The notes under the pieces: model-generated
The model's input: only the letters and a program-made list of their open reading frames with translations
Databases searched by the model: none
Told to the model about the DNA's origin: nothing
Position numbers and translations under genes: made by a program
Assembly: GCF_013009555.1 (NCBI RefSeq)
Contig: NZ_CP046176.1
Location: 4,061,501-4,125,500 of the forward strand
Direction of reading: 5' to 3'
Length of the DNA stretch: 64,000 nt
Origin: Phocaeicola dorei
GTDB lineage: Bacteria; Bacteroidota; Bacteroidia; Bacteroidales; Bacteroidaceae
Shown: positions 13,836-31,162 of the stretch, in pieces
How the letters are laid out: each line of letters starts with the position of its first letter
How positions within the stretch are numbered: the stretch's first letter is position 1

Positions 13836-13858
13836 ATTCAATATCTTTTAATGGTTTA

Positions 13859-16800
13859 TCAAAATCCAAGTCTTAATCCGATAACATAACTACGAGTCAA
13901 TATGGTATTGTTTGTTTGACCACCAATAAAATTAGTGTCATTTGTTTTTTCACTCCATCCTGTTGTATCATCTGGGTTTATACCCGATTTCACTAATTCT
14001 CCTCCAAATATAAATGGATTCAATACTTGACCATAAATTTGACAACTAGCAGCCCCAAGTTTCTTCAACCACTTTTCAGGGAACGTATATGATAAAGCAA
14101 TATTACGTATTGCTACCATATTACCTTTAGTATAGTTCATATAAGCACTATAATCTGTAGTAGTTACACCACCAGAACGAGGTTGTGGAAACTTTCCATT
14201 CGGATTTTCAGTACTCCATACGTCCTTTTCTACACGACGACCATAAGTTTGTAACAATCCATAATACATATTGCCCATACGAGCATAAACAAATGAATTC
14301 AACTGCCAGTTTTTATAGATAAATGTAGTAGTAAAGCCACCAATCCATTTAGGTTGGAATGACCCAAGAAATTTATTATCTTCTGTATTGATAGTACCAA
14401 AACCATTATCCATATAAGTCACTCTTTCGCCAGAATTCAATGTTACAGTTTTTGCTCCTTCCGTACCCTCGGGAACTTCTATTAATGGTTGGTCTACAAC
14501 TTTCGCCATTCCAGGCTGCATTACAGTCTTCGATATTTTCTCATATAATTCCAAAGTTCTTAAATCTTCAGGAGTATTCTGCCATAAACGATCATATTTC
14601 AAAGTCCAAATTTCATCTTTAGGTTTACCTATAAACCATTTATTTGCTGTATCATCAACCTTTCCTCCTGCCAATTCCACAATTTCTTCTTTATTAGTAG
14701 AGAATGTAAAATCAGTCTTCCATGTAAAATCTTTTGTTTGAATATTAGTTGTAGACAATGTTATTTCAAGTCCTTTGTTCTGTGTTTTACCAATATTAGT
14801 AGTAATACTTGTATAACCAGTCATCAAAGGTAATGATTTAGCAAGCAGCAAATCCGAAGTTTTAGCCACATAATATTCCACACTACCGCTTATACGGTTG
14901 TTAAGAAAGCCAAAATCAACACCAATATTGGTAGACGCTGTCTTTTCCCAACCTAAATCCAAATTAGGTAATACAGAAGCTTTAGCACCAATAGTAACTT
15001 GAGTAATATTACCTACCCCAAAAAACTTACCGGCACCACTTGCTGTCATTGTTCCAGAAGTCTGATACGGTTTTATAGATGCATTACCTGTCACACCGTA
15101 TCCAACACGAACCTTCAATTGATTGATCCATTTAACGTCTTTCATAAAGTTTTCCTCATTCATCTTCCATGCCAATGCAGCAGAAGGGAAAAAATCCCAT
15201 TTATTACCAACAGCCAACATAGATGCACCATCCCATCGACCAGTAACAGTCAACAAATATTTATCCATCAATCCATAATTCATACGAGCCATATAAGAAG
15301 CACGCTTTTGTTCGCTAAATGAAGATCCTGGGCTATCCATTGTCAAATCGGAATTACCCACACTATACCATAATGCCGTAGGAAATGTACAATTATATGC
15401 ACGTACTTCCAATCCCTCAGCACGAGAATACTCAGCAGACTGCATCAATGTTAATCCCACAGAATGGATATTCTTGAATATTTTATTGTAATAAATTAGA
15501 TTTTCTAATGTCCACGACAAATTTTGACCTTGCTGATTAAAGGCTGTATTAGCAGCATAAGCAGAATGCTTCAAAGGATTAGAAAAATCATTTCCATAAT
15601 AGCTTCCATAACGTGAGTTGCGATACTGAGTACCTAAATTTGTGCGCCATTTTAACCCTTCAACCGGCGACCATATTTTACCAAAATCAATTTCTCCATA
15701 AGAATTAAACATAACACTATAATAACGAGTTTCATTCGTTGCCTGATATACATCCAACATCGGATTATACTGTGACGGACCTCCATCTACATTCAATGGT
15801 TTGCCCTCCTCATCATAAGCAGGGGCGAATGGCATTTTAGCCACAGCATAGCCATAAGAATCTTTGTAGGTTGAATTAGAAGTATTATTAATAATACCAT
15901 AATTCTTAATAGAATGACTGGCATTCATACCCATACCTACCTTTAAAAAATTTGTAGCTTGAATTTCACCATTAATATTTGCCGTATAACGCTTAAAATC
16001 TTGATCTTTCATCGGAGACTCTTGATCCAAATAAGCCAATGAAATGTACAAATTAGATTTTTCAGAACCAGCTGACAACGAAATCTGATGATTATGAGTA
16101 ATCGCAGTACGTGTCACATAATCAGTCCAAGGTGTAGTTGGAATATTTGCAGAATTATATACAGGTACTTGATCAGCATATCCTAAAACCTCTTTTTCAT
16201 AATCTGTAGCCGGACGCATCTTATATGAACCATCCGCATTATATTCCCATGCTTTCTGAAAATATTGATTCAAATACGGATAATTAGATACACCTCCACC
16301 ATTGTCAGAAAACAATAAATCACCATCAATATTAGGATCAGGAGCATTACCATATGTACCTGAATATGCTCCTGTATTAATATAAGCTTGACGTTTCCAA
16401 TCGATTAATTCGCCAGAATCCATCCAATCTGTCATCGAATGGATTTTAGAAAAAGTTACCGTTCCATCATAATTAATACTAACCTTACCAACTTTACCTT
16501 TTTTAGTTGTTATCAAAACAACACCATTCGCTCCACGTGAACCATAGATGGCGGTAGCTGAAGCATCTTTTAAAATTTCCATCGACTCAACATCATTCGG
16601 ATTTATATCAGCAATAGAACCGGCAACCATAGGTATTCCATCAATAACATATAACGGATCATTATCAGCAGTAATAGAACGATTACCACGAATTCGAACA
16701 TCTCCCAATTCACCTGGTCGGCTATTTGTTGTAATATCCACACCAGGAGCTTTACCTTGCATAGCCTGCAAAGCATTTTGCACTGGACGCTCTTTTATTT

Positions 16801-17224
16801 GCTTCTCTGAAACTTTTGTCAACGCTCCTGTAACATCACTCTTTTTAACAACACCATAACCTACTACCACAACCTCATCCAGTGTTTCAGTATCCTCCTC
16901 CAAGATTACCTTAACGGTAGATTGTCCTTTCACCTGGATATCTACGGTCTTGTATCCCACGAAACTTACTTGGATAGTTCCATTATCAGGAACATTTTGA
17001 AGTGTGAACTTACCATCAAAGTCAGTAATTGTACCATTGGTAGTACCTTTCACCACCACACTGGCACCGATTACAGACTCACCTGTCTTGTCAAGGACAG
17101 TACCCGAAACGGTTTTGCTCTGTGCAAAGGCCCCTACAGCCAATACGGATAACAAAGCAACGAAGAACAGCCGCTGGAACTTGTCCAGGCGACCCAACAG
17201 ACTTGAATTCTTTCTGTCTTTCAT
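13859..17224 (-). CDS. SusC-like TonB-dependent transporter (module A)
   Basis: A 1121-residue outer-membrane protein: signal peptide (cleavage near AVGAFAQ), carboxypeptidase-regulatory-like domain (about 38-112), TonB-box region DEVVVVGYG (about 115-124), plug domain with IRGNRSI and LYVIDGIP, SusC signature KDASATAIYGSRGANGVVL, and a beta-barrel ending in the aromatic residue of GLRLGF. It imports oligosaccharides with its SusD partner. The first 125 codons and 30 bp of leader are identical in nucleotide sequence to susC-B on the other strand, then identity stops abruptly at VVKKSDVTGAL against VQKKSDVTGAM. I see no consensus promoter in the 1 kb upstream, so the gene may be silent in the orientation shown (inference). 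Confidence 0.95.
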   Translation of the reverse strand: MKDRKNSSLLGRLDKFQRLFFVALLSVLAVGAFAQSKTVSGTVLDKTGESVIGASVVVKGTTNGTITDFDGKFTLQNVPDNGTIQVSFVGYKTVDIQVKGQSTVKVILEEDTETLDEVVVVGYGVVKKSDVTGALTKVSEKQIKERPVQNALQAMQGKAPGVDITTNSRPGELGDVRIRGNRSITADNDPLYVIDGIPMVAGSIADINPNDVESMEILKDASATAIYGSRGANGVVLITTKKGKVGKVSINYDGTVTFSKIHSMTDWMDSGELIDWKRQAYINTGAYSGTYGNAPDPNIDGDLLFSDNGGGVSNYPYLNQYFQKAWEYNADGSYKMRPATDYEKEVLGYADQVPVYNSANIPTTPWTDYVTRTAITHNHQISLSAGSEKSNLYISLAYLDQESPMKDQDFKRYTANINGEIQATNFLKVGMGMNASHSIKNYGIINNTSNSTYKDSYGYAVAKMPFAPAYDEEGKPLNVDGGPSQYNPMLDVYQATNETRYYSVMFNSYGEIDFGKIWSPVEGLKWRTNLGTQYRNSRYGSYYGNDFSNPLKHSAYAANTAFNQQGQNLSWTLENLIYYNKIFKNIHSVGLTLMQSAEYSRAEGLEVRAYNCTFPTALWYSVGNSDLTMDSPGSSFSEQKRASYMARMNYGLMDKYLLTVTGRWDGASMLAVGNKWDFFPSAALAWKMNEENFMKDVKWINQLKVRVGYGVTGNASIKPYQTSGTMTASGAGKFFGVGNITQVTIGAKASVLPNLDLGWEKTASTNIGVDFGFLNNRISGSVEYYVAKTSDLLLAKSLPLMTGYTSITTNIGKTQNKGLEITLSTTNIQTKDFTWKTDFTFSTNKEEIVELAGGKVDDTANKWFIGKPKDEIWTLKYDRLWQNTPEDLRTLELYEKISKTVMQPGMAKVVDQPLIEVPEGTEGAKTVTLNSGERVTYMDNGFGTINTEDNKFLGSFQPKWIGGFTTTFIYKNWQLNSFVYARMGNMYYGLLQTYGRRVEKDVWSTENPNGKFPQPRSGGVTTTDYSAYMNYTKGNMVAIRNIALSYTFPEKWLKKLGAASCQIYGQVLNPFIFGGELVKSGINPDDTTGWSEKTNDTNFIGGQTNNTILTRSYVIGLRLGF

Positions 17225-17254
17225 ACTTTAATTATTAAGTTAAACAAAAGTTAG
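16850..17254. repeat. 405-bp inverted repeat, left copy (5' end of susC-A)
   Basis: Identical in reverse complement to 30758-31162. It covers 30 bp of leader and the first 125 codons of susC-A. Identity at DNA level is supported because the translations of the two copies agree in the coding frame and in two antisense frames. It starts at a C just before TAACTTTTG and ends after GGTTATGGTGTT, beyond which the two genes differ. Serves as a potential crossover region for inversion of about 13.5 kb. Confidence 0.95.
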
Positions 17255-18108
17255 AAAGCAGTTTTTTTATAGGATTATTATATTGATAAACAGTGAGTTA
17301 TATTTTTCAACGACTCATATATTGAATAAAAATTAAATCTATGTTTTCTTTTTAATCACACATATTCTCAATCTATATTCTTATTAATCAAGTATATATA
17401 AATTAATATTCTCATACTATTATTATTAATAGCATATTTTATTTCCTTTTTGTTGTATTCAATATCGTGACTTATCTAATTAATATCATTCATATAAACA
17501 ATATATACTACTTACTTCTTTGATAAAAACTTGCTATGGATTTTAAAATCATCTATAACAGATGATTGACGATAGTTTGACATTACATCGATTTTTTTTA
17601 ATAACTTTAAAGCATAGGAAAGACGGGAATGCGACCCTTAAAAATATTTTTATTTTTCAAGTATGAATATACAAAATGACAGCGGAAATAAAAAACTAAA
17701 AACTTTATGATGACTCTTTACTATAGTTCTTCTTTTAAAATAGAATATCCTTTATAAAAACAGGAAGAATTTTGGTCCAAACTATGATTCGACATGATTG
17801 AGAACTAAAACTCAATCATCAGATTTGTATACTTAATCAACAGATGCTTGATGCTTATTGGAAATTTAAAGAGTGTATAAATCTATAATAAAAAAAGAAG
17901 AATATTTTCCGTATTACCATGTTATTGACTGAACGTCTTGACATATTCCCATATGTACTTTTTAATAATAATGAAACCTATAAGTTCCTGTATTATCCCA
18001 ATAATGGCCTTTATTAGATGAATGGTGCCTACATCATAAATAATAATTATACCAAGAACTTCAGACCAGAGACTATTAACCTTATAAAAAAAGATGTGAC
18101 TTTAAAAA
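17255..18108. other. AT-rich non-coding stretch upstream of susC-A
   Basis: About 850 bases of very AT-rich sequence without a convincing gene. A small open frame (18018-18233, rightward) has no start context or recognisable motif. Searching the minus strand for TAnnTTTG found no match, so I see no promoter for susC-A here. Confidence 0.5.
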
Positions 18109-18169
18109 AAATACTAATATATGGATTTCTCAAATTGCTTTTAATTGAAAGATCCATATATCAGTATTT
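18109..18169 (-). terminator. Terminator of module C (after NigD-like gene)
   Basis: AAATACTAATATATGGAT (18109-18126) and ATCCATATATCAGTATTT (18152-18169) pair over 18 bp with one wobble position; reading leftward the hairpin is followed by a run of eight T. It lies about 100 bp after the NigD-like stop. Confidence 0.65.
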
Positions 18170-18266
18170 CATTTCCCTAGTTTTGTATAATATTTTTCTT
18201 GATTGGCTAAGCCTTTATCGTTTTTATCGGTAAAATTTCTGCAAATGCAATGAAGAATCCAATGTT

Positions 18267-19070
18267 TTAAGGAAGCATAAAATCTTTTAAAGCCATTTTA
18301 CAATGTATTTGTTCTTGACCGGAAACGGTTTCAGAATTCAAATATACATCGATAAGATCGTCATCATTCATGCCTTTATCTTGAAATTTATAATAAATTT
18401 CTCCAGGCATTTCAAGACTTATAAACGAAGAAATTGAGTTATTACTACTTTGTATACTATTATTAAAATACAAATTTAGATTCAACTTATTATTAGAAAT
18501 ATCTATATCTTTTTCGCCATCATAGTATAATAAAAAGAAAACTGGCTTATATAAATCATACTCAAAAGTTGGAACAATATTCATATAACCATTTTTTATA
18601 TAGAATGCTCCGGCCGTTTTATCTAATGAATAAATACTCTTATTTTTTAGATGGATAGAGTCTTGGCCGGATATTTGATACTCTTCACTTAAAGTGTCAA
18701 CATGAACTGTAAAAGTAGGAATCTGTTGGCTCATTCCATTCGTACTGTTTAATATAATATCATAAGTTTTTCCATCCTCCAATTGAGTTATATTTTCATT
18801 TTCCTCCAATAGATTAAAACTAACTATGGCACGTTGTACTTCTTTTAACCAAGGTATACGATTAAGACTTTCTTCTGTTGGAACTAAAATTGCACCAAAA
18901 TCCGTGTATAACTTGTAGCCACGAATATTGTCTCCACTAACCGTAACATATACACCATTAAATTTAGACCATTGCGCATCATCGTCATTACTGAGACATG
19001 AGCAAAATAGCCCGATACAAACTACAAAAACTACAAAGAAAAAGAGAATATAAAATCTAGATTGTTTCAT
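18267..19070 (-). CDS. NigD-like lipoprotein
   Basis: A 267-residue lipoprotein (lipobox FCSCLSNDDD). After the Asp-rich anchor there is a beta-rich region with GYKLYTDFGAILVPTE, then RAIVSFNLLEENEN and a C-terminal beta-sandwich-like part. This resembles the NigD family of Bacteroidales lipoproteins, which often lie downstream of SusC/SusD pairs; no enzymatic role is known to me and none is visible. It is separated from susD-C2 by an 83-bp gap with a hairpin, so its expression may be lower than that of the transporter genes. Confidence 0.65.
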   Translation of the reverse strand: MKQSRFYILFFFVVFVVCIGLFCSCLSNDDDAQWSKFNGVYVTVSGDNIRGYKLYTDFGAILVPTEESLNRIPWLKEVQRAIVSFNLLEENENITQLEDGKTYDIILNSTNGMSQQIPTFTVHVDTLSEEYQISGQDSIHLKNKSIYSLDKTAGAFYIKNGYMNIVPTFEYDLYKPVFFLLYYDGEKDIDISNNKLNLNLYFNNSIQSSNNSISSFISLEMPGEIYYKFQDKGMNDDDLIDVYLNSETVSGQEQIHCKMALKDFMLP

Positions 19071-19102
19071 GTCATTTTTATAAATTATAATTTAAAGGTA
19101 AA

Positions 19103-19136
19103 AGAGGATGCTTTATACATATTGATGCATCCTCTT
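19103..19136 (-). terminator. Hairpin between susD-C2 and NigD-like gene
   Basis: AGAGGATGC and GCATCCTCT form a 9-bp stem followed on the minus strand by TTTTA. The short T run suggests a partial terminator or attenuator inside the module C operon. Confidence 0.55.
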
Positions 19137-19153
19137 ATTGTATATTTATTCTA

Positions 19154-20857
19154 TTACCATCCTGCGTTTTGAGACAAATTAGGATTTTTCATACGTTCCG
19201 ATTGTGGAATTGGGAAGAGATACATTTTATCATTCCAAACACGATTGACAACGTTTCGTTTATAAGTGATAGTACCATCCTCATTTTTTGTAAGTTTCAT
19301 TTCTATGATGCTCTTTAATTTATCACCATCTTTCCATCTTCTCAGATCATAAAAACGATGTCCCTCAAAAGCCAATTCTACCATGCGCTCATTCTGATAT
19401 TTATTCCAAAAAGCATCTGCCGACAAACCTGTTGGAAATTCCGGCATTTTGACATCAGTACGATTACGTATGATATTTACCGCTTCACAAGCTGTCATCC
19501 CGAATTCGCCAGCATTATCAGCAGAACCCGTATATTGGAATATGGCTTCTGCATAGTTTAAGTAAAATTCTCCTAAACGATAAGTGATCCATGAATGGCG
19601 GCTGGTTTTTGTAGTACTATTGGCACTCAGATCAATGGCTGAATCCAAATATTTTTTCAAATAATATCCGGTAGGAGTTGCACCTGAAAGAGGTTCAGCA
19701 TTCAAACCTCCATAAAAAGTTTCAATAGGATTGGTATTCTTTGATGGCCATTTTGTATCGCCATTCTTCACAATAGTCATATCGAAGCGTGGATCACGTC
19801 CGACATATGGATTAGAAGCGTCATAACCACTTCCTGTTTCATTCCACATTTTTCCAGTAGCTTTCATTTCATAGGCATCAACCATATTTTGTGTTGGACA
19901 ATTACCGGAATTTCCACCTGGTACTCCCATTGGAAAATTATATTCTTCCAATGTGCTGATGTTACCATTATATCGACGAACAAAAATCATTTCATTATTT
20001 GACCAGTTGTTAGGTCCCCACAATTCTGAGTACTTACTTAATTTAAAACCGTTAGCCGTACAAGTTTCAATCACTTCTTTATTAGCTTCAGCTGCTCTGC
20101 GCCACAAATCTTTGTTATTTTCCGGATTAAACAATGGACTGGCAGCATATAAAGCAGCACGTGCTTTTAATGCCAAAGCCGCATAACAAGTAACACGACC
20201 GTTCTCTGCTGGGGCAATTCCGTCCAGTCCAAGTTTTGTGTAGTCTGCAGGTAATTCAGTAGATAATTTGTCACATTCTGCTATAATGGCATTAAAAATT
20301 TCCTGTGCAGGGGTGCGTGTTAGACTGTTTACTTGATCCGTAGTTACCATTTCTGTAAAATATGGAACATCCCCATAAGCACGTACTAAATTAAAGTAAA
20401 AATATGCACGCAAAAAACGAGCTTCCTTGAAACTGTTGGTATAACGGAACATTTGTGCACGATAGTCATCATTTAATTTTAATTCATCAAATGTCAATCC
20501 TTGAAATTCAGCCAGATACTGATTACATATCTGAATTGCTTTATAGCTGCTAGTCCAGATATTAGACATTGGATTAGCCGGACTCCAAGATCCGTTTACA
20601 AAATCACATATATCATTGTTTGTATAGGCATATTCAGCTTCATCACAAGCGGATGCCAGCATTCCACCTTTATATGTTTGACCAAAGTCATAGTCTAATA
20701 TGGAATAAACATTGGTAATCATACCAATTACATTTTCATAACTTTCATCTATATAGTCTTTTCCGTAATTGGCATATTCGTGATAATCCAGGTTACATGC
20801 AGCCAAAGTTACCATACATGCCATTCCGCTCACTATTTTTTTGATTTTCATAATCAT
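19154..20857 (-). CDS. SusD-like lipoprotein (second pair of module C)
   Basis: 567 residues, typical SusD length. Lipobox TLAACNLDYHEY; helical repeats with FKEARFLRAYFYFNLVRAYGDVPYF, the classic SusD helix around the glycan-binding arch, ITYRLGEFYLNYAEAIFQ and a C-terminal ERMVELAFEGHRFYDLRRW followed by FPIPQSERMKNPNLSQNAGW. The start may equally be the ATG two codons in, at 20851. It follows susC-C2 by 22 bp. Binds glycan at the cell surface and caps the SusC barrel. Confidence 0.95.
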   Translation of the reverse strand: MIMKIKKIVSGMACMVTLAACNLDYHEYANYGKDYIDESYENVIGMITNVYSILDYDFGQTYKGGMLASACDEAEYAYTNNDICDFVNGSWSPANPMSNIWTSSYKAIQICNQYLAEFQGLTFDELKLNDDYRAQMFRYTNSFKEARFLRAYFYFNLVRAYGDVPYFTEMVTTDQVNSLTRTPAQEIFNAIIAECDKLSTELPADYTKLGLDGIAPAENGRVTCYAALALKARAALYAASPLFNPENNKDLWRRAAEANKEVIETCTANGFKLSKYSELWGPNNWSNNEMIFVRRYNGNISTLEEYNFPMGVPGGNSGNCPTQNMVDAYEMKATGKMWNETGSGYDASNPYVGRDPRFDMTIVKNGDTKWPSKNTNPIETFYGGLNAEPLSGATPTGYYLKKYLDSAIDLSANSTTKTSRHSWITYRLGEFYLNYAEAIFQYTGSADNAGEFGMTACEAVNIIRNRTDVKMPEFPTGLSADAFWNKYQNERMVELAFEGHRFYDLRRWKDGDKLKSIIEMKLTKNEDGTITYKRNVVNRVWNDKMYLFPIPQSERMKNPNLSQNAGW

Positions 20858-20879
20858 GTTTTTAATTTAAGTTCAACAA

Positions 20880-23729
20880 TTAAAAGCCGATAGTTAATCC
20901 AGCCACTACACTACGAGTTAAAGGATAAGTCGCTCCATAAACTTCGGGATCGGCAATATTAATCTTATCAAAACACAAAAGGTCAATACCTCTCACATAA
21001 ATCTTTGCATTGCTTAATATTTTGCTTTTTTTCACCCATGTTTGTGGAAACTTGTAATACAACTCTATTGAACGAAGTTTCAAAAATGAGCGGTCTGCCA
21101 ACCACAAGGTATTGGTCTGATAATTGTTCTCATTACTTTGAGAGCTCAAACGAGGATATTTAGCGTCTTGATTTTCCGGAGTCCACCGGTTATCATAATA
21201 TTCCTGTGAAATCGTTGTATTATTTATTAATGGCCAGTATAAACTCTTCGTATTTAATACAGCAGAATATCTTCCTGTTCCTTGGAACATGGCATCAAAG
21301 CCTAATCCTTTCCATTCCGCGCCCAAATTGAATGAATAGTAAATTTCAGGAGCAGTCGTACTATACCCTATAGCAACTTTATCATTCGCATCAATGATAT
21401 TGTCACCATTGACATCCTTATATTTTATATCACCAGGTTTTACATCACCAAATGACTGCTTAGGACTATTCTCAATGTCAGCTTGATCTTTAAAATATCC
21501 GATAACTTCCATACCATAAGTTTGCTTCAGAGGGTTACCTGTAGTTATAAGATTGTCATACATACGCGGTTCTTCCATTTGCTCGATAATCTCATTTTTG
21601 GCTAAAGCAAAATTAGCTCCTATATTTAAAGTAATGTCAGCAATTTTTTTGTGGTAATTAGCACCAATTTCAACTCCCCAACTATCTACAATGCCACCAT
21701 TTTCATAAGGAGCAGTAAATCCTAAGACACTTGAATAATGGCCGCTTGAAGACACCCAAATATCTGAACGTCTTTCATAATAAGCATCAAAAGATACATC
21801 CAACCCATTGAACATACTGGCATCTAAACCGAAATTATATTTATATGCTTTTTCATGAGTAGAATTCAAAGAAGCCAGACGACCTAATGACCAACTTTGC
21901 GTTCCTACAGAATAATTTGTGTCAAATGGATAATAACCACCGCCACCATATGTTTGTTCCCAATAGTTAGTAACCTCGTTGTCATCATCCAACGGAAGAC
22001 GGTCGGTATTAATGACGCCCAACGAAGCTCGCAGTTTTATAAAATTAATCCAAGAAAGATCTTTTATGAAATTTTCTTTTGACATGACCCAAGCTAAACC
22101 AATAGTGGGAGATATAGACCATTGATGTCCTGGTGCCAATTTATTAGACGCTGAAGCAACTACACTCAAATCAGCAAAATATTTATCTTTGTATCCATAA
22201 TGAGTATAGAAAGAGGCATTCTGACGATACCAAGTCTGATCAGTCCCTTTGGTATTACGGTATTCATAGTCCCATTTTAATTGACTATAAATCTTATTGT
22301 CTTTATTTATTTGTTTGTCATAAAATAAAGTTGCTGCAAAATTGAATACCCGTGTAAATGCAATACATTTAGCATCACTACTCATCGCACTTTCTTTACC
22401 ATCAGTATAATAAGTCGTACTTGAGGGTACGCCATTTTCCCATGCAGTTACCGAATTACTACCATAAACAAAAGTTTTAGAATGATTTTCCCAATATTGG
22501 GCATAGTTATCATAAGATAACATACCGCTTGCTCCTAGTCCTGGGGTTATAGATGATAAATCTTGGGTAAGAGTCATATCAGCGAACAATGTACGTTCGT
22601 GGAACTTTGTGTAAGCCGCCGCTTGTGATACAGCTAAAGGATTTTTGGTTCCAGCCCAAGTCGCACTACCTCCCCATGTACCATTTTCCAAACGAGCGGG
22701 AAAAGCAGCGGAAGGTAAAGTATAAATCATATCCCATAAATTAGCACCTCCCTGATCGTCCGCTCCCGGAGTCCTAGTTTCTGACAGGATACCTAATACA
22801 TTTAATTTCAATTTTGTTTTTTCTGTTAGATCAATATCCAGATTAGTACGTAAATTGGCTCTGGAGTATTGGTCCTGTGTAGAATATCCATCATTCATAT
22901 AAGGATTGGCAATAAATCCTTTATTAGTAGTCAAGTTAGCCATGGCATAATAACGGAATTTGCTTGCCCCACCTCGGAAACTTATATTATATATATTGGT
23001 GGCATCCATATCACGATAAGTTTCTCCAAGCCAATCCACATTAGCATAAAGATATGGATATTGACCACTACGAAATGCGTTCAGCTCATCTTGTGTATAA
23101 CGTGTTGTTAACCCGTCATTTACCAATGCTTCATTCATGGCATTTGCATAAGAATAACTGTCTACAAACTTGGGTTTGCGTGCCTGCCAACCGAAACCAT
23201 GATCATAAGTAAACTTGATTTCACGTGTATTATAAATACCACGTTTGGTAGTGATATTAACTACACCATTAATACCTTTATGTCCGTAAATAGCTACTGC
23301 AGCAGCATCTTTCAATATAGTGACAGTTTCTACCTCTTCAGGAGTAACATCTGTAATATCACGTTCAATACCATCCACCAATATCAACGGATTATTGGTA
23401 GATAAACTTTGTAGACCACGAATAAAAAATGTAGGTTCAGCATCTGCATATCGTCCGCTACCTTGTAAAGTAGTCAAGCCTGTACCATATCCAAAAAGCG
23501 AATTAGCTATATTTTTAGCACTACGCTTATTGAAATCTTCATTATATACGGTAGAGATTGATGAGGTAGATTCTTCCAGACGTTGAGCTTTATGATATCC
23601 GATTTCTACAACTTCATCGGAATATTTTGCCGGTTTACCGGAAGTTATACTATCATTGAGTTCCTGTGCATACCCCTGCATACTCAAAAAAGTAAGGAGT
23701 GCCGGAATAATTAATCTATTTTTTCTCAT
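20880..23729 (-). CDS. SusC-like TonB-dependent transporter without regulatory-like N-domain (second pair of module C)
   Basis: 949 residues, shorter than the other three SusC proteins because the carboxypeptidase-regulatory-like domain is absent: after the signal peptide (to GYAQ) the protein goes within 20 residues to DEVVEIGYHKAQ and the plug domain (FFIRGLQSLS, LILVDGIERDITDVTPEE, KDAAAVAIYGHKGINGVVNI). The barrel ends in VVAGLTIGF. It lies 40 bp after susD-C1 with no promoter or terminator between, so it is transcribed as part of module C. Two pairs in one operon suggest import of two related oligosaccharides. Confidence 0.93.
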   Translation of the reverse strand: MRKNRLIIPALLTFLSMQGYAQELNDSITSGKPAKYSDEVVEIGYHKAQRLEESTSSISTVYNEDFNKRSAKNIANSLFGYGTGLTTLQGSGRYADAEPTFFIRGLQSLSTNNPLILVDGIERDITDVTPEEVETVTILKDAAAVAIYGHKGINGVVNITTKRGIYNTREIKFTYDHGFGWQARKPKFVDSYSYANAMNEALVNDGLTTRYTQDELNAFRSGQYPYLYANVDWLGETYRDMDATNIYNISFRGGASKFRYYAMANLTTNKGFIANPYMNDGYSTQDQYSRANLRTNLDIDLTEKTKLKLNVLGILSETRTPGADDQGGANLWDMIYTLPSAAFPARLENGTWGGSATWAGTKNPLAVSQAAAYTKFHERTLFADMTLTQDLSSITPGLGASGMLSYDNYAQYWENHSKTFVYGSNSVTAWENGVPSSTTYYTDGKESAMSSDAKCIAFTRVFNFAATLFYDKQINKDNKIYSQLKWDYEYRNTKGTDQTWYRQNASFYTHYGYKDKYFADLSVVASASNKLAPGHQWSISPTIGLAWVMSKENFIKDLSWINFIKLRASLGVINTDRLPLDDDNEVTNYWEQTYGGGGYYPFDTNYSVGTQSWSLGRLASLNSTHEKAYKYNFGLDASMFNGLDVSFDAYYERRSDIWVSSSGHYSSVLGFTAPYENGGIVDSWGVEIGANYHKKIADITLNIGANFALAKNEIIEQMEEPRMYDNLITTGNPLKQTYGMEVIGYFKDQADIENSPKQSFGDVKPGDIKYKDVNGDNIIDANDKVAIGYSTTAPEIYYSFNLGAEWKGLGFDAMFQGTGRYSAVLNTKSLYWPLINNTTISQEYYDNRWTPENQDAKYPRLSSQSNENNYQTNTLWLADRSFLKLRSIELYYKFPQTWVKKSKILSNAKIYVRGIDLLCFDKINIADPEVYGATYPLTRSVVAGLTIGF

Positions 23730-23769
23730 AATAATTAATTCAAATTGTAATTGAAGTATTCATTAGTTA

Positions 23770-25746
23770 TTACCATCCGGGATTTTGAACAAGCCCGTAT
23801 CCTTTATTAACTTCTGTTGACGGAAATGGAGAAAGATACCATTTAGGGTCAAATCCATTTGTCCACCAATAACGAGTAGGGTTATTCAATTCAAATTTTT
23901 CATATTCAAAATGGGTTGGATAAGCCATCTTCCCTTCATCGTTTCCACGCCAAGGCAAATCTCTTCGTACTCCGTTGTCATCTAAACGATAAATGAAAAG
24001 TCCATGCAATTGCTTTTCAAATACATCTGCTCGTTTATAGCGAATCAAGTCAAAGAAGCGTGCATCTTCCATACCTAGTTCGCAAGCACGTTCACGAAGA
24101 AGTTCTTCAATAAAAGCATCTTTATTACTTTGTAAATTTTTATCTGGATTACATTCTGCCAATCCTTTCATTCCTACACGTGCGCGTACAATATCTACTT
24201 GAGCTATAGCTTTATCCATACTGCCTCGTGAACTTTGACACAATGCTTCCGCATAAATTAAATGCAGTTCAGCTATACGGATACAAGGCCAATGTACATA
24301 TCTACGCAACATATCGTTTCCCATTAAGAATTTGATGGGTGCATATCCCGTAGCGAATGAACCTGTTTGACTGGTAGGACCATTGCCGGCACTCTTTCCG
24401 CCCAACCACGATTCAAAGCAATACCCCGACATATTTCCTGTAGTCCAATCCAAAGATTCTTGCTGACCATTTACAATGATTTCTTCATACATACGCGGGT
24501 CACGGGTCAATTCTATATTTATTAGTCCGTCACTGGCTGTGCCCGTTCCTTTCAAAAACATTTCATCCAGTTTTCCTTCACTTTTAGTCTTATCCCAATC
24601 AAACGGCATACCATCTTTCCAAGGAAACATTTCCATATATTCTTGTGTAGGACTGTAACCACGATGAATGCTCATAAGAGGATCTCCCCATTGGTGCCAA
24701 TTATAATGACTTGATTTGAATGCATCAATATCAATTACACGTGTGTTTATCAATACTTCCGGGCTGTCCAAATTAGCATAGCCTGCACGATATGCCAAAC
24801 GATAATCTTCTGGACGAGTACCTTTCGCCCGCTGTAAACTATATCCACCTTTAGAAGCCAGTTCATTAAAGAATTGTTCACACGCTTCCAGACAGCGATC
24901 CCATAGTTCCGGTTTATAACCACCATACCAAATAGCAGGATTGCCTGTCGCTCCCGGGTAATAAGGCTGGTCGGAATTAAATAAAGGTGAGGCTGCAAAT
25001 TGAAGAATACGACATTTATAAGCTAAAGCTGCTGCTCTAGTCCAGCGTCCGGATTCAGATGCAGGTGTTTCTACAGTCCAAGGAAGTACAGCAGCAGCTT
25101 CATCCAGCAATTGTACCATATAATTCACTGTTTCTTCCACACTGTTACGGGGCATTTCATAGCTTGTATCTGTCCCACTGAATGTACCTTTAATTAAAGG
25201 AATGCCACCATAATGACGAAATACATCAAAATAACGGGAGGCAAGAATACATTTCGCTTGTGCCACCATAGAAACTTTTTCATCTTCCCCTAACCCCGGT
25301 ACATTATCAATATTCTCAATCAACATCCATACTCCACGTACAGCTTCCCAGATATTATTCCTTAAATAATCAAATTTATCAGAACGTTTACCATAATTAG
25401 CTGTATGAGTACCTTGATAATAAGGTCCGGTGATACCGGCTGATGGATAAGTATATATATAAAGATCTGTCAATGCCTCCGGTTTGCCCACGTAATTATT
25501 AGAACTTTCCTGATTAGCTACATTTTTATAAGGAAGCCCATAATATTGCATACCATAAAGATTAGTCAGAAACTGTCTGGTATATTCAGCATTGTTAAAT
25601 ACGGTATCTTTTGTAACCGATCCTCCTGGAGCCTTTTCCAAAAAAGAGTTGCCGAACTTGATTTCATCGACACATGAAGTAGCGATGACAGATGTTAGAG
25701 CCAGTCCTGAAGCAACATTAAAAATCCATTTATTATATTTTTTCAT
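23770..25746 (-). CDS. SusD-like lipoprotein (first pair of module C)
   Basis: 658 residues. Signal with Cys in ATSCVDEIKFG, then FLEKAPGGSVTKDTVFNNAEYTRQFLTNLYG, a common SusD opening. Further SusD landmarks: CILASRYFDVFRHYGGIPLI, IRIAELHLIYAEALCQ, LLRERACELGMEDARFFDLIRYKRAD and the end LSPFPSTEVNKGYGLVQNPGW. It follows susC-C1 by 18 bp and should pair with it. Confidence 0.94.
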   Translation of the reverse strand: MKKYNKWIFNVASGLALTSVIATSCVDEIKFGNSFLEKAPGGSVTKDTVFNNAEYTRQFLTNLYGMQYYGLPYKNVANQESSNNYVGKPEALTDLYIYTYPSAGITGPYYQGTHTANYGKRSDKFDYLRNNIWEAVRGVWMLIENIDNVPGLGEDEKVSMVAQAKCILASRYFDVFRHYGGIPLIKGTFSGTDTSYEMPRNSVEETVNYMVQLLDEAAAVLPWTVETPASESGRWTRAAALAYKCRILQFAASPLFNSDQPYYPGATGNPAIWYGGYKPELWDRCLEACEQFFNELASKGGYSLQRAKGTRPEDYRLAYRAGYANLDSPEVLINTRVIDIDAFKSSHYNWHQWGDPLMSIHRGYSPTQEYMEMFPWKDGMPFDWDKTKSEGKLDEMFLKGTGTASDGLINIELTRDPRMYEEIIVNGQQESLDWTTGNMSGYCFESWLGGKSAGNGPTSQTGSFATGYAPIKFLMGNDMLRRYVHWPCIRIAELHLIYAEALCQSSRGSMDKAIAQVDIVRARVGMKGLAECNPDKNLQSNKDAFIEELLRERACELGMEDARFFDLIRYKRADVFEKQLHGLFIYRLDDNGVRRDLPWRGNDEGKMAYPTHFEYEKFELNNPTRYWWTNGFDPKWYLSPFPSTEVNKGYGLVQNPGW

Positions 25747-25764
25747 TTGATTGCATTATTAAGA

Positions 25765-28700
25765 TTAAAAACCAAGTTTCAAACTCAATGAATATGTTTT
25801 TGTCAGCGGATAAGAGGGAGAATTGCTAGCCTTTGATTCCGGATCACTCCAAAAATATGGAGTAAAGGTCAATAAATTATATCCACTTAACGCTAACTGC
25901 ATAGTATTCAGTTTCAGTTTTTTCATAAACGGAAGATTGAAATTATAAGCAATTTGCAGATTTTTCAAACGAAGATACTTAGCATCTTTCTCCCACAAAG
26001 TTGATTCCGCATAGTTATTGGTATCGTTGATAAATGTCGCACGCGGATATTCCGCATTTGGATTCGGATTCTCTGGAGTCCATGTATGGTCTAACATATA
26101 TTCCAACAAACCTCCTTGATCTGAGTTTGTACGGTCTGTAAAAGGTTGACGGAATACGCTTGATATACTGCGGCTTACATTCCATGCGGCAGTCCATTGC
26201 ATTGAAACATCAAATCCCTTCCAGCTGAATCCCATATTAAGACCGGCCATGTATTCCGGATCATCTGTGAAACCAAATTGACGTGACATATCGTTAGAAT
26301 CTATTTTACCATCGTTATTTAAATCGACATATACACAATCACCATTTTTTAAATCACTGACTAATTGTTCTGGCATATCCGTACCATATACTTCTTTGTA
26401 ATGAGTAGGGGTTGTTTCCGAATTATAATATTCAAAGAATTTATATTGGCTGCGTGAACCAAGACGACGTCCTTTTTGATACATATATTCTTCATTCTGC
26501 GGAGCTTCTTTTCTCTCTACCACCCGATTTTGATTGTACATCAAATTCAATCCTACGTTATATCTAAAATTGTCGCCTATTTGATCGTTCCATTTTAAAG
26601 TGATTTCCCAGCCCCAGCTTCTCATTTCCCCAAGATTAGCCAATGGAGGAGTAAATCCTAATACAGAAGGAGCCGTACCGTCACTCAACATAATGTCTGT
26701 ACGTTTTTCATGATAATAATCAAATGAAGTGCGTAAGCGATCATTAAGGAAATTAGCATCTACACCTAAATTGGTTTTCAACGCTTTTTCCCATGTAATA
26801 TCTTGGTTATTCTTTCCATTTTCATAAGCTGCAGGACTTACTGTGGAATTATTGATACCAAACAAAAAACCATGACCATCACGGTTAATTAAAGAAGAAT
26901 TATTAACTACATAAGGATCAGACATATAGAGGAAACGTTGCTTGTTTCCGTCAAAACTATCATTACCAACTAGACCGGTTGTATAACGAAATTTCAAGAA
27001 ACTTACTACTGATTTTATAGGTTTCCAGAATTTTTCCTCACTAACAATCCAACCAAAAGACCCGGCCGGAAAAGTACCAAAACGTTTGCCGGGTGCATAA
27101 TTCTCGGAACCATTATATCCAATATTGAATTCTGCCATATAGCGGTTTTTCCAATCATAAGTTGCACGTCCCACTATACCAACCATACCACGAGGAATAT
27201 CAGAATATGCACTAGGATAATATATCTTAGACTGATTGTATAACAATAATGCTGAAACATGATGATTACCGAATTCCCGGGCATAGTTTAAGGCTGCCTC
27301 CATATACCAATCACGTGATTTAGCCGGATCCTTATCTTCATATTTCAACTGAGAATTTTGTCCATATTTCTTGTAAGCAATCGTACCATCTTCCTGTAAT
27401 ACAGGAGTATAAGTTGCAACACTAGCACTAGCCTGTGTATAAGATGTAAAGCCACTATTGTATGATCCTTTAATATGGAATGACAATCCTTTAGTTATAA
27501 AATCCAGTTTTTGTTTTAATTGGACATCAGCATTTAAGGTGTTATTACTGGTTCGCATAAAACCTCCACCATAGTATCCCATGCCGCTACCACCAGTAAA
27601 AGGCATTCTCAAATCCGGATAGTCCGTACTTGCATTAACCAGTTTGCCATCGACAAGTCCCGGACTAGAAAACGGAGTGGAATAATACATGTTTATTAAC
27701 ATCCCGGCACTACCCTGTCCAGTATAAGGTTTAGAAGCATTATTCACATTACCAGCAATATTCATTGATAATGTTGTCGTTTTGGTTACGTCAATATCTA
27801 GATTTGAGCGGTAATTGAAACGATTATATTGATAAGACAGATTATAGGGCAAGTCAAATTCTTTAAATAAACCACCTTGTGTATAAGCTCCTGCTGAAAT
27901 AAAATAACGTACACGGTCTGTACCACCTGATATATTAACATTATGCTGTGTTTGAAGGGTCATATCTTTTAAGCAATAATCTACCCAATCCACACTTGGA
28001 AAACGAACGGGATCTGAACCATCTTTAAATTTCTGGATTATTTCATCCGAAAACGTAGGATTCAAACCATCACCAGTGTTTATTTGGTTATAAAAAGTGG
28101 CATATTGATAAGAATTAGCCATTTTAATACTTTCGGTCGGGGCAATAATACTTGAGGAAGTCGTAAATGAAATCTTAGCCTTTCCTTCCTTACCTCGTTT
28201 AGTCGTAATTAAAACAACGCCATTTGCACCTCGTACACCAAAAACAGCCGTAGCAGAAGCATCTTTTAATATAGAAATGCTTTCTATTTCATTAGGATCA
28301 ATATCATTCATGCTACGTTCCACACCGTCTACTTGAATAAGAGGAGCAGATTGATTCCATGTAGCTTGACCACGGACAAAAATATTCGCTGCATCACTTC
28401 CCGGTTCTCCGGAATACTGTACGGTAGTCAAACCTGCCATTTGCCCTGATAACATATTAGAAATGGACCCTGTTGGAGTTTTTGTCAATTCTTCACCTTT
28501 TACGCTGGAAATAGCTCCAGTCACAGAAACCTTTTTCTGAACACCATAAGCTACAACCTCTACTTCTCCTAACATTTGAGAATCATCCTCCAAAACAATT
28601 TCGATATTAGATTGTTTTACTTCCACAGTTTTAGAACTATATCCAATGAATGAAATCAATAACTTAGCTCCTTTAGGAACATCCAGTTTAAAAACTCCAT

Positions 28701-28947
28701 CAATGTCGGTTATAGTACCTACTGTCTGACCTTGCACAACAACATTGGCACCAATAATAGGTTCTCCTAAATTATCTACAACCTTACCGGTCACTGATAC
28801 TTTTTGTTGTTGAGCAATATTGTTTGCAGCTATTGCCGACTGTCCTCCTAGGGGAAGAGCCAGAGGACCTGCAAACAGACTAAAGAGAAAAAGCCATCGA
28901 AATCTTAATCGATGTCCCAACAGACTTGATTTTTTGCTGTCTTTCAT
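25765..28947 (-). CDS. SusC-like TonB-dependent transporter (first pair of module C)
   Basis: 1060 residues: the N-terminus MKDSKKSSLLGHRLRFRWLF resembles that of susC-A/B, followed by a signal peptide, a regulatory-like beta domain (about 48-125, ending VEVVAYGVQKK), plug domain (IFVRGQATWN, LIQVDGVERSMNDIDPNE, KDASATAVFGVRGANGVVL) and a barrel ending LSLKLGF. Its 40-bp leader (28937-28976) is identical to those of susC-A and susC-B, but the coding sequence is not part of the long identical repeat. I find no TAnnTTTG box in the 340 bp upstream, so module C is predicted to be off in this orientation (inference). Confidence 0.94.
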   Translation of the reverse strand: MKDSKKSSLLGHRLRFRWLFLFSLFAGPLALPLGGQSAIAANNIAQQQKVSVTGKVVDNLGEPIIGANVVVQGQTVGTITDIDGVFKLDVPKGAKLLISFIGYSSKTVEVKQSNIEIVLEDDSQMLGEVEVVAYGVQKKVSVTGAISSVKGEELTKTPTGSISNMLSGQMAGLTTVQYSGEPGSDAANIFVRGQATWNQSAPLIQVDGVERSMNDIDPNEIESISILKDASATAVFGVRGANGVVLITTKRGKEGKAKISFTTSSSIIAPTESIKMANSYQYATFYNQINTGDGLNPTFSDEIIQKFKDGSDPVRFPSVDWVDYCLKDMTLQTQHNVNISGGTDRVRYFISAGAYTQGGLFKEFDLPYNLSYQYNRFNYRSNLDIDVTKTTTLSMNIAGNVNNASKPYTGQGSAGMLINMYYSTPFSSPGLVDGKLVNASTDYPDLRMPFTGGSGMGYYGGGFMRTSNNTLNADVQLKQKLDFITKGLSFHIKGSYNSGFTSYTQASASVATYTPVLQEDGTIAYKKYGQNSQLKYEDKDPAKSRDWYMEAALNYAREFGNHHVSALLLYNQSKIYYPSAYSDIPRGMVGIVGRATYDWKNRYMAEFNIGYNGSENYAPGKRFGTFPAGSFGWIVSEEKFWKPIKSVVSFLKFRYTTGLVGNDSFDGNKQRFLYMSDPYVVNNSSLINRDGHGFLFGINNSTVSPAAYENGKNNQDITWEKALKTNLGVDANFLNDRLRTSFDYYHEKRTDIMLSDGTAPSVLGFTPPLANLGEMRSWGWEITLKWNDQIGDNFRYNVGLNLMYNQNRVVERKEAPQNEEYMYQKGRRLGSRSQYKFFEYYNSETTPTHYKEVYGTDMPEQLVSDLKNGDCVYVDLNNDGKIDSNDMSRQFGFTDDPEYMAGLNMGFSWKGFDVSMQWTAAWNVSRSISSVFRQPFTDRTNSDQGGLLEYMLDHTWTPENPNPNAEYPRATFINDTNNYAESTLWEKDAKYLRLKNLQIAYNFNLPFMKKLKLNTMQLALSGYNLLTFTPYFWSDPESKASNSPSYPLTKTYSLSLKLGF

Positions 28948-28976
28948 ACTTTAATTATTAAGTTAAACAAAAGTTA
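28937..28976 (-). repeat. 40-bp susC leader repeat, copy C (candidate inversion site)
   Basis: Forty bases, from the fourth codon of susC-C1 to 29 bp upstream of its ATG, are identical to 17214-17253 (same orientation) and to the reverse complement of 30759-30798. The core includes GTTTAACTTAATAATTAAAG. Being inverted relative to the susC-B copy, it could support inversion of about 1.86 kb containing the recombinase gene and the susC-B promoter. Confidence 0.85.
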
Positions 28977-29177
28977 ACTTGATATATAAGTATAGAAGTA
29001 TCGAAAAAAGCCCATTTCATCGAATTTTGTAATATAGATGATACAATAATAGAGAATATAAAGAGCTCTTATTGCTGTTTGAAAAAAATCTCTTTTAGTT
29101 GGTTTTTATGAAATATTTTGCTTTACGTTCCAATTTATATGAAGCAGTTTATGTCCTAGCATAAACTTAAAAGATAT

Positions 29178-29253
29178 CCTTAAAAAGTAAGTGTACTTCA
29201 TTAGCCATTTAAGTACATTTACTTGGCTCACGAAGCATACTTGCTTTTTAAGG
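29178..29253. repeat. 30-bp imperfect inverted repeat downstream of recombinase gene
   Basis: Arms 29178-29207 and 29224-29253 pair over 30 positions with five differences, around a 16-base spacer containing AAGTACATTTACTT. Outer ends CCTTAAAAAG/CTTTTTAAGG are exact. It lies about 65 bp beyond the recombinase stop and 200 bp upstream of the module C leader. It could be a recombinase-binding site, an mRNA hairpin or a terminator of the recombinase transcript. Confidence 0.55.
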
Positions 29254-29317
29254 TAATACAATAATAACATTTACATGAAATGAAAAAGCATTTATGCATA
29301 TATAATAATAGAATTGG

Positions 29318-30499
29318 CTATTTAAGCAATTGATCGAAGATTTCTCTAAAAACCTTATCGGCATGCTCCTGCATTATTCGTATATAATTAAATATAGGAC
29401 GATTGTTTTTCATGCTATGGCCAATACAATATTCTATTTTTTCTATTTCGATACCTATATCATAACCATGTTGTGCAAATGTTTTTCTTGCAGAATAATA
29501 TGAAACCTTTCTATTTATGCCTGCTAGACCAGCCACTTTCCCTATATGTCTAAAGACCAAACTATATACTTTTTCATAAGATTTATACTTGCCAAAAACT
29601 AATTTCCCATTTTCTGAAATATATCGATCAATAATTGCCTGTGCTTCTGGCTGGATAGTGAAAGCTATTTCATTTTCATTCTTTTTGCTATTACGGGTTT
29701 TATGTCTTATATATCTCATACAGTTCCCTTTAGTGAAATCATACTCCATTAAGTCTCTTAGATTAATACCACCTAAATAATAAGTTAACATAAATATATC
29801 CCGAGCCATGATATGCACAGATTTGAATAATTTTACATCACGTATTCTTTTTAATTCATCAACGGACAGATCTAGTTCTCTGATATTACTAATTGGCATT
29901 TTAAATAAGACAAAAGGATGAACTAAATAAGTTACATAATTCATTTTCCTGGCATAGTTCAATATTACTTTTATTAAAGTGAGGTAAATCCTGATAGAAG
30001 TTTCTTTTAATCCTTCAGCCTTCATTACATCAGCGAAACTTTGTATATGTGTCGGACTGAGTTGTACCAAAGGAAAATCACCTTTCATGTGTTTAAGGAA
30101 CTTTGCACAAGCTATATTATATAATTTATGGGATTTTTTACGATCGTCTGCCTCCATCATCGAAAGATATTCTTTCACTACCGTATTAAAGGTTATTCCC
30201 TTTTTTTGTTGTTCCCGAGTTATGACATGTATTAATTCAGTGCATGAAATGGTCGACTGATAATGAATAGACGAAAGAATCTCTTCGTATTCATTAATCA
30301 GTTTGCGCAAACAAGAATTTATATTAGCTGCATTTTCGTGTTTTACTACTCGTCCATTTTTCATTTGATTTGCAGAATCCAAAATGAATTGGGTTGAAAT
30401 ATATCTCGTTTGTGAACGATGAGCTACTGCGATCCTAACTCTATGTCTACCGTTAGATAATTTTTTAGCAGGCACAATTACTATTGAAAGATTAGCCAT
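29318..30499 (-). CDS. Tyrosine recombinase (phage-integrase family), probable SusC-module invertase
   Basis: The ATG at 30499 (393 residues) is preferred to a TTG at 30505. Order: N-terminal arm-type domain (1-95), SAM-like core-binding helices (about 100-205), catalytic domain (about 215-393). Catalytic landmarks: Arg338 in SARKTF, His361 in IGHSM and the likely nucleophile Tyr372 in FNYIRIM. The first arginine position aligns with Asn246 in GGINLRDL (Arg248 is near), and the His of HxxR is Tyr335; such variants occur in Bacteroidales recombinases beside SusC genes as I recall them. No transposase, mobilisation gene, phage gene or tRNA is near, so a local DNA-invertase role fits better than a mobile-element integrase. 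It lies between modules C and B. Confidence 0.88.
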   Translation of the reverse strand: MANLSIVIVPAKKLSNGRHRVRIAVAHRSQTRYISTQFILDSANQMKNGRVVKHENAANINSCLRKLINEYEEILSSIHYQSTISCTELIHVITREQQKKGITFNTVVKEYLSMMEADDRKKSHKLYNIACAKFLKHMKGDFPLVQLSPTHIQSFADVMKAEGLKETSIRIYLTLIKVILNYARKMNYVTYLVHPFVLFKMPISNIRELDLSVDELKRIRDVKLFKSVHIMARDIFMLTYYLGGINLRDLMEYDFTKGNCMRYIRHKTRNSKKNENEIAFTIQPEAQAIIDRYISENGKLVFGKYKSYEKVYSLVFRHIGKVAGLAGINRKVSYYSARKTFAQHGYDIGIEIEKIEYCIGHSMKNNRPIFNYIRIMQEHADKVFREIFDQLLK

Positions 30500-30676
30500 A
30501 TTCAAATTTTAGTTTATACGTTTTACAATACAATATTAAAGTAACAATCAGAAATAAAAGCACTCTTGTATAACAAAAATGCTCGTGAGACTATCCATTT
30601 TGAGATTGTTCACAGACATTTGTACTATTTTTCAGTTGAAAAGACGTAAATTTCCATGCTTTTGTACAATCCTACA

Positions 30677-30707
30677 TTGGCTTTTTTCATATTCACGCAT
30701 ATATTTG
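30677..30707 (+). promoter_or_regulatory. Predicted promoter of module B inside the invertible segment
   Basis: TTGG at 30677-30680, a 19-bp spacer and TATATTTG at 30700-30707 fit the Bacteroides primary sigma consensus (TTTG, 19-21 bp, TAnnTTTG). Transcription would begin near 30713, about 75 bases before susC-B. It lacks the 17-bp element of the enzyme promoters. It sits 50 bp outside the 405-bp repeat, within the segment that would be flipped. Confidence 0.7.
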
Positions 30708-30757
30708 CAACACTTTTTCACAGGTGGGAGACCTATTTCTCCTGAGAGAATAGAAAA

Positions 30758-31162
30758 CTAACTTTTGTTTAACTTAATAATTAAAGTATGAAAGACAGAA
30801 AGAATTCAAGTCTGTTGGGTCGCCTGGACAAGTTCCAGCGGCTGTTCTTCGTTGCTTTGTTATCCGTATTGGCTGTAGGGGCCTTTGCACAGAGCAAAAC
30901 CGTTTCGGGTACTGTCCTTGACAAGACAGGTGAGTCTGTAATCGGTGCCAGTGTGGTGGTGAAAGGTACTACCAATGGTACAATTACTGACTTTGATGGT
31001 AAGTTCACACTTCAAAATGTTCCTGATAATGGAACTATCCAAGTAAGTTTCGTGGGATACAAGACCGTAGATATCCAGGTGAAAGGACAATCTACCGTTA
31101 AGGTAATCTTGGAGGAGGATACTGAAACACTGGATGAGGTTGTGGTAGTAGGTTATGGTGTT
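30758..31162. repeat. 405-bp inverted repeat, right copy (5' end of susC-B)
   Basis: Reverse complement of 16850-17254, without a difference that I can find. Contains the 40-bp leader repeat (30759-30798) and codons 1-125 of susC-B. Left boundary at the C before TAACTTTTG, right boundary after GGTTATGGTGTT. Confidence 0.95.

Follow-up and report, generated by a model that had tools for sequence, protein, structure and literature searches.

In Bacteroides fragilis NCTC 9343, region EE has been described as an intergenic shufflon, with inverted repeats lying over the starts of susC/ragA genes downstream of an invertible promoter (PMC5729914), and Tsr0667 of B. fragilis has been reported to make inversions of the shufflon type in three SusC/SusD clusters, besides acting at nine further regions (PMC4747536, PMC11852207). 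Nutrient-receptor shufflons of B. thetaiotaomicron have also been mentioned (PMC12548429), and invertible regions of Phocaeicola dorei have been reported to differ in inflammatory bowel disease (PMC10939037). We have analysed here a stretch of 64,000 nucleotides from P. dorei, hereafter the window (positions 4,061,501–4,125,500 of contig NZ_CP046176.1, a one-contig genome of 5.63 Mb with a completeness of 100), in which an inverted repeat joins two divergent susC genes, susC-A and susC-B, and encloses a tyrosine recombinase gene together with a third SusC/SusD module, C. Judged by its anatomy, the locus belongs to the shufflon kind of Bacteroides SusC/SusD systems: inverted repeats lie over susC start codons, a site-specific recombinase gene is present at the locus, and more than two sites accompany several alternative SusC/SusD pairs (three cores, three modules). 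The view that it is likely a programmed switch of a known kind in a new layout is well supported by the sequence comparisons presented below.

Core sites and a recombinase-plus-promoter cassette

The two arms of the repeat (Table 1) are identical over exactly 405 bp, comprising 30 bp of leader and 125 codons, just as the original prediction for this stretch had described. When mismatches are allowed, the inverted match extends to 438 bp at 98% (16817–17254 and 30758–31195, with a spacing of 13,503 nt). Past codon 125, the DNA identity between susC-A and susC-B is 51.6% over the stretch compared, which bears out the description of the rest of both genes as only moderately similar, and the next best match to the repeat in the genome outside the locus is 71% over 302 bp. 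The same prediction counted two repeats; the inverted pair does exist, but a third, shorter copy was found at 28916–28985, ahead of susC-C, matching the A arm in direct orientation (61 nt at 95%) and the B arm in inverted orientation (70 nt at 90%), with 40 bp exactly identical to both. The part common to all three window sites is a 31-bp core that overlaps the susC start codon, and site sA is identical to sB and sC across its whole length. It is this core, and not the 405-bp repeat, that is the likely recombination site. A 30-bp core pattern gave three exact matches in the 5.63-Mb genome and no further ones at up to three mismatches, with none for the reversed control.

The recombinase is encoded on a cassette between sC and sB. 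Its residues Lys269, Arg340, His363 and Tyr374, which we take from the family motif to be catalytic, are invariant across 12 aligned relatives. The listed start of the gene is a TTG at 30505, and a Met at residue 3 (30499), invariant in 12 relatives, may be the real start. No solved structural relative of the protein was detected by sequence at E up to 0.01. On the 5′ side of the recombinase, the cassette carries the only exact copy in the window of a promoter-like motif, TTGTACAA-N30-TATATTTG, whose TAnnTTTG part is presumably the Bacteroides −7 box. TAnnTTTG occurs 59–60 nt ahead of the core on this side in all seven loci considered (the window, P. vulgatus, L010, L011, L012, G030 and G035), and in none of the seven within 160 nt on the 3′ side of the recombinase, nor within 160 nt of the susC-A core, the chance expectation being ∼0.12 per 160 nt. 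Likewise, the starts of susC-A and susC-C have neither part of the motif within 250 nt (TTGTACAA being searched at up to one mismatch).

Since the recombinase lies beside the window's only copy of the promoter-like motif and identical sites are present at three modules, DNA flipping likely selects the active set. We consider it probable that the locus is a three-way selector, in which the cassette recombinase would recombine the three identical cores and bring one SusC/SusD module at a time behind the promoter. In the assembled order, susC-B would be on. Recombination of sC with sB would flip the 1.8-kb cassette, turning C on and B off, and in silico this product places the motif 59 nt ahead of the susC-C core, with an open frame of 1,060 codons; recombination of sA with sB would flip 13.5 kb, turning A on and B off, and in silico the motif then stands ahead of the susC-A core, with an open frame of 1,121 codons. 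The same-facing pair, sA and sC, would delete or insert the 11.7-kb C unit. Every SusC protein would stay unchanged after such a crossover at the core, and the conserved motif, sitting on the cassette, would be placed by the predicted inversions ahead of different SusC/SusD pairs. Site-specific inversion by the enclosed tyrosine recombinase, already proposed in the original prediction, is hence the best reading of the locus, and the accompanying idea that inversion exchanges upstream regions while leaving the proteins unchanged agrees with the frames of the in-silico products, which stay open. Module C, which had been placed inside the invertible block, is indeed enclosed by the repeats, but it appears as a third selectable module, and its same-facing pair sA/sC predicts not an inversion but the deletion or insertion of C, which is how P. 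vulgatus differs.

Cassette orientation among relatives and rival explanations

The locus of P. vulgatus ATCC 8482 resembles that of the window in its recombinase (98% identical), in TAnnTTTG at the same place, in two exact cores and in its own identical inverted arms, of 442 bp; it differs in the body of susC-A, 70.4% identical as against 98.2% for susC-B. Among 399 sampled genomes of the family, the core pattern was present in four (G000, G060, G386 and G027), three of which (G000, G060 and G386) combine it with a recombinase at least 73% identical; the G027 contig begins at the core and gave no recombinase match reaching E 1e-110. Outside this sample, paired cores flank recombinases 64–65% identical in G030 and G035. 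Two collections yielded no mobile carrier: viral contigs contained no exact match to the 30-bp core pattern, and plasmids had no match to the recombinase at E up to 1e-40. A recombinase that is 72% identical lies, in B. faecis, between two divergent operons (a lipoprotein-like open reading frame (ORF) plus susC) with a different inverted repeat (L016:7274–13833), an arrangement that is possibly a sister switch.

Opposite states of the cassette were found by comparing an uncultured Bacteroides metagenome-assembled genome (MAG; locus L010) with B. stercorirosoris (L011). The flanks of both loci match in inverted orientation (99.0% over 9,580 bp and 98.8% over 2,590 bp) and the cassette matches in direct orientation (97.8% over 1,944 bp), ending at a 42-bp inverted core, which indicates that the cassette is inverted relative to its flanks. 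Opposite cassette orientation was also observed for L013 and L014 versus L015, with flanks at 71–83%. These cases bear on the idea that no dedicated switch exists, long identical arms being occasionally recombined by RecA and the recombinase serving something else. Identity over 405 and 442 bp in two genomes would suit such an explanation, as stretches of this size are long enough for homologous recombination. We nevertheless judge it very improbable, given that opposite orientations occur where just the 42-bp core is shared, that the core alone is common to all three window sites, and that core and recombinase co-occur.

Several observations weigh against a three-way selector. The evidence for rearrangement comes from between-genome comparison only, and the best case of a flip, L010 versus L011, involves two species-level records, one of them a MAG. 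Moreover, the B slot of L010 holds a different SusC/SusD pair with old susD remnants, and the A side in both loci consists of a susD remnant only, so that the flip there would be an on/off event and not a choice. At a length of 35 bp or more, self-comparison detected an inverted core pair in L014 but in neither L013 nor L015. The 13.5-kb inverted state occurs in no genome examined, and no other examined locus has all three sites. Recombinases at most 54% identical (in G025, G017 and five more genomes) sit in genomes without the core at up to three mismatches. The promoter is a consensus match; the composite motif recurs exactly once elsewhere in the genome, beyond the window (G000:C1:2848826–2848872, minus strand), and in full it precedes only three of seven susC starts without a recombinase match in the fetched stretch. 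Finally, the arms of B. oleiciplenus, 69.1% identical, are not homogenised.

The lack of the large inversion in the genomes examined, together with the single site on each side of the cassette in the other paired-core loci (L009, L010, L011, L012, L043 and L044), would be in keeping with a two-way switch. Under this reading, the 1.8-kb cassette would flip between B and the module adjoining it, at present C, there would be no 13.5-kb inversion, and A would have been cut off by the arrival of C and be either silent or expressed on its own. Against this, sA has kept the whole core in common with sB and sC, and 405 bp of the A arm still agree exactly with the B arm, which implies that A and B exchanged sequence recently, possibly before C arrived. 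We regard the two-way switch as unlikely and maintain the three-way selector. As for the 13.5-kb block, which the original prediction expected to flip and whose orientation was to be compared in related genomes, its inversion stands as one of the two predicted here, but relatives directly support only that of the 1.8-kb cassette, found in opposite orientations between them.

Behind the B-slot pair of L010, the old susD-B remnants (L010:18377–19288) are a trace of recent module replacement.

Arm identity and the presence or absence of module C

Within the window and within P. vulgatus, the arms are 100% identical over 125 codons, but a comparison of one genome with the other shows 21 differing bases out of 375, with 18 codons changed synonymously and 3 by replacement. 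Other within-genome pairs of arms were 93.7% (G026), 89.5% (G030), 88.7% (G035) and 81.2% (G025) identical. In the arm tree, six of the seven within-genome pairs appeared as sisters, B. oleiciplenus being the exception and the support for G030 being low (0.49); none of the seven were sisters in the body tree, in which susC-B was represented by its first 1,593 nt for P. vulgatus and by 2,934 nt for G026. On these comparisons, arm identity is concerted evolution, in agreement with the proposal that it is kept by recent exchange. As the arms stay where they are when crossover takes place at the core, their identity calls for a copying step, which could be branch migration running out of the core into the arm or else homologous recombination between arms. 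The 405-bp identity is likely a by-product, the N-terminal coding stretch having been copied from one gene to the other. The susC-B gene of P. vulgatus ATCC 8482 is interrupted by ∼0.95 kb (L009:7171–8126).

The same data bear on a functionless origin of the repeat, either as a recent duplication of the susC 5′ end or as an assembly error. The assemblies of two draft genomes, G026 and G027, are interrupted at this repeat, as is typical of repeats. Such an origin seems to us scarcely credible, since the window belongs to a single-contig genome of completeness 100 and the finished genome of P. vulgatus has inverted arms identical to each other yet different in letters from those of the window, which is not what a single old duplication would yield. 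Assembly error, simple duplication and inversion purely by RecA were set aside on the evidence given against each.

P. vulgatus has two sites and lacks module C here, and a search of its genome for the second susC of that module gave nothing at E up to 1e-150. The in-silico product of an sA/sC deletion aligned with P. vulgatus through the junction (2,693 bp at 92%), which means that the window and P. vulgatus differ by one core-to-core unit of 11,723 bp. In this one case, the unit is bounded by same-facing sites and the difference falls exactly at the core. Relatives of the second susC occur in 52 of the 399 family genomes, and the order susC, susD, susC, susD is retained in the seven fetched loci that carry them. 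The noncoding tail of the unit (17255–18260) had no match in the other 60 genomes of the genus at E up to 1e-8. A more far-reaching and less probable reading is an integron-like receptor platform, in which whole SusC/SusD modules would be captured and lost as circular cassettes at the start-codon core, with the recombinase travelling with the promoter, inversion selecting the expressed module, and copying outward from the core keeping leader and N-terminal domain alike among captured genes; on this view, module C was captured recently.

In the A slot, susC and susD share 64% and 52% protein identity with those of P. vulgatus, and the DNA of the adjoining enzyme is 97% identical, as if the susC/susD pair had been exchanged as an allele.

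Gene content and comparison with known systems

Matches to Pfam profiles support a rhamnogalacturonan-I locus, with an RGL11 lyase at 39884–41737, three GH106 proteins, GH28 and GH88, as well as a rhamnosidase-like protein, an oligogalacturonate-lyase-like protein, a sulfatase and esterase-like proteins. Between susD-A and the oligogalacturonate-lyase-like gene lies a predicted polysaccharide deacetylase gene (10288–11265, minus strand), which is missing there in P. vulgatus (L009) and in G026 (L041). The window contains no Rfam match and no tRNA detected by ARAGORN. The hairpin on the cassette (Table 1) is a possible terminator. A leader RNA hairpin was considered and rejected, as z-scores of −0.67, −0.34, −2.48 and −1.56 in four loci were too weak to claim.

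Table 1. Features of the switch region, in window coordinates
Feature	Position	Strand	Evidence
susD-A	11523..13841	-	Pfam
susC-A	13859..17224	-	Pfam
A arm of 405-bp repeat: leader and first 125 codons of susC-A (signal peptide, CarboxypepD_reg-like domain)	16850..17254	-	
Core site sA, 31 bp, overlaps susC-A start codon	17223..17253	-	
Core-to-core unit, 11,723 bp (module C and noncoding tail), absent at this place in P. vulgatus ATCC 8482	17254..28976	.	
NigD-like ORF, last gene of module C	18267..19070	-	match just below Pfam cut-off
Second susD of module C	19154..20857	-	Pfam
Second susC of module C, without CarboxypepD_reg-like domain	20880..23729	-	Pfam
susD-C	23770..25746	-	Pfam
susC-C, first gene of module C	25765..28947	-	Pfam
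Core site sC, 31 bp, overlaps susC-C start codon; faces the same way as sA and is inverted to sB	28946..28976	-	
Recombinase-plus-promoter cassette, ~1.8 kb, between cores sC and sB, predicted to flip	28977..30758	.	
Hairpin, 76 nt: 35-nt arms, 80% complementary, 6-nt loop; between recombinase 3′ end and susC-C	29178..29253	.	
Tyrosine recombinase, PF17293, PF13102 and PF00589	29318..30505	-	above Pfam cut-offs
Promoter-like motif, 59 nt ahead of core sB, facing susC-B	30662..30707	+	predicted from sequence
B arm of 405-bp repeat	30758..31162	+	
Core site sB, 31 bp, overlaps susC-B start codon	30759..30789	+	
susC-B, predicted as gene behind promoter in assembled order	30788..33940	+	Pfam and in-silico recombination
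susD-B	33972..36110	+	Pfam

If the three-way selector operates as proposed, members of a clone would express different pectin receptors through DNA rearrangement and not through sensing alone, so that the clone would be heterogeneous both in its growth on rhamnogalacturonan-I and in its outer-membrane surface. A natural comparison is provided by G338, in which 35 kb fetched gave no recombinase match and the composite motif stands ahead of both susC-B and susC-C (with one mismatch at susC-C), as opposed to one motif copy for three modules here. In the G338 loci L075 and L081, susC/D-B and module C lie in tandem, and a core-like sequence with three mismatches is found at the susC-C start. Together, a start-codon core and homogenised arms offer testable predictions on how SusC/SusD repertoires are gained and kept exchangeable. 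Among the literature matches listed, which covered few subscription journals and no supplements, no such switch was described at a rhamnogalacturonan-I locus.

Region EE and the present locus are alike in having repeats that overlap susC/ragA start codons and large inversions that put alternative SusC/SusD pairs behind a promoter, both the inversions and the promoter being predictions here. The comparison is one of anatomy, and in the P. dorei locus, unlike region EE as described, a single central cassette carries both the recombinase and the promoter-like motif, one pair of sites is same-facing and coincides with a presence/absence difference to P. vulgatus, the setting is a predicted rhamnogalacturonan-I locus, and the arms are homogenised over 125 codons. 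Tsr0667 is likewise an invertase for shufflon-type inversions at SusC/SusD clusters; however, it is reported to act at many regions, whereas the 30-bp core, at up to three mismatches, is confined in this genome to a single locus. The shufflons of B. thetaiotaomicron, as described, also express alternative nutrient receptors in turn. What appears to be new with respect to these known shufflons is a cassette at the centre that combines the recombinase with the promoter-like motif, a third site that is same-facing and goes with a presence/absence difference, a core found at one locus, and concerted evolution of the arms that has been measured.

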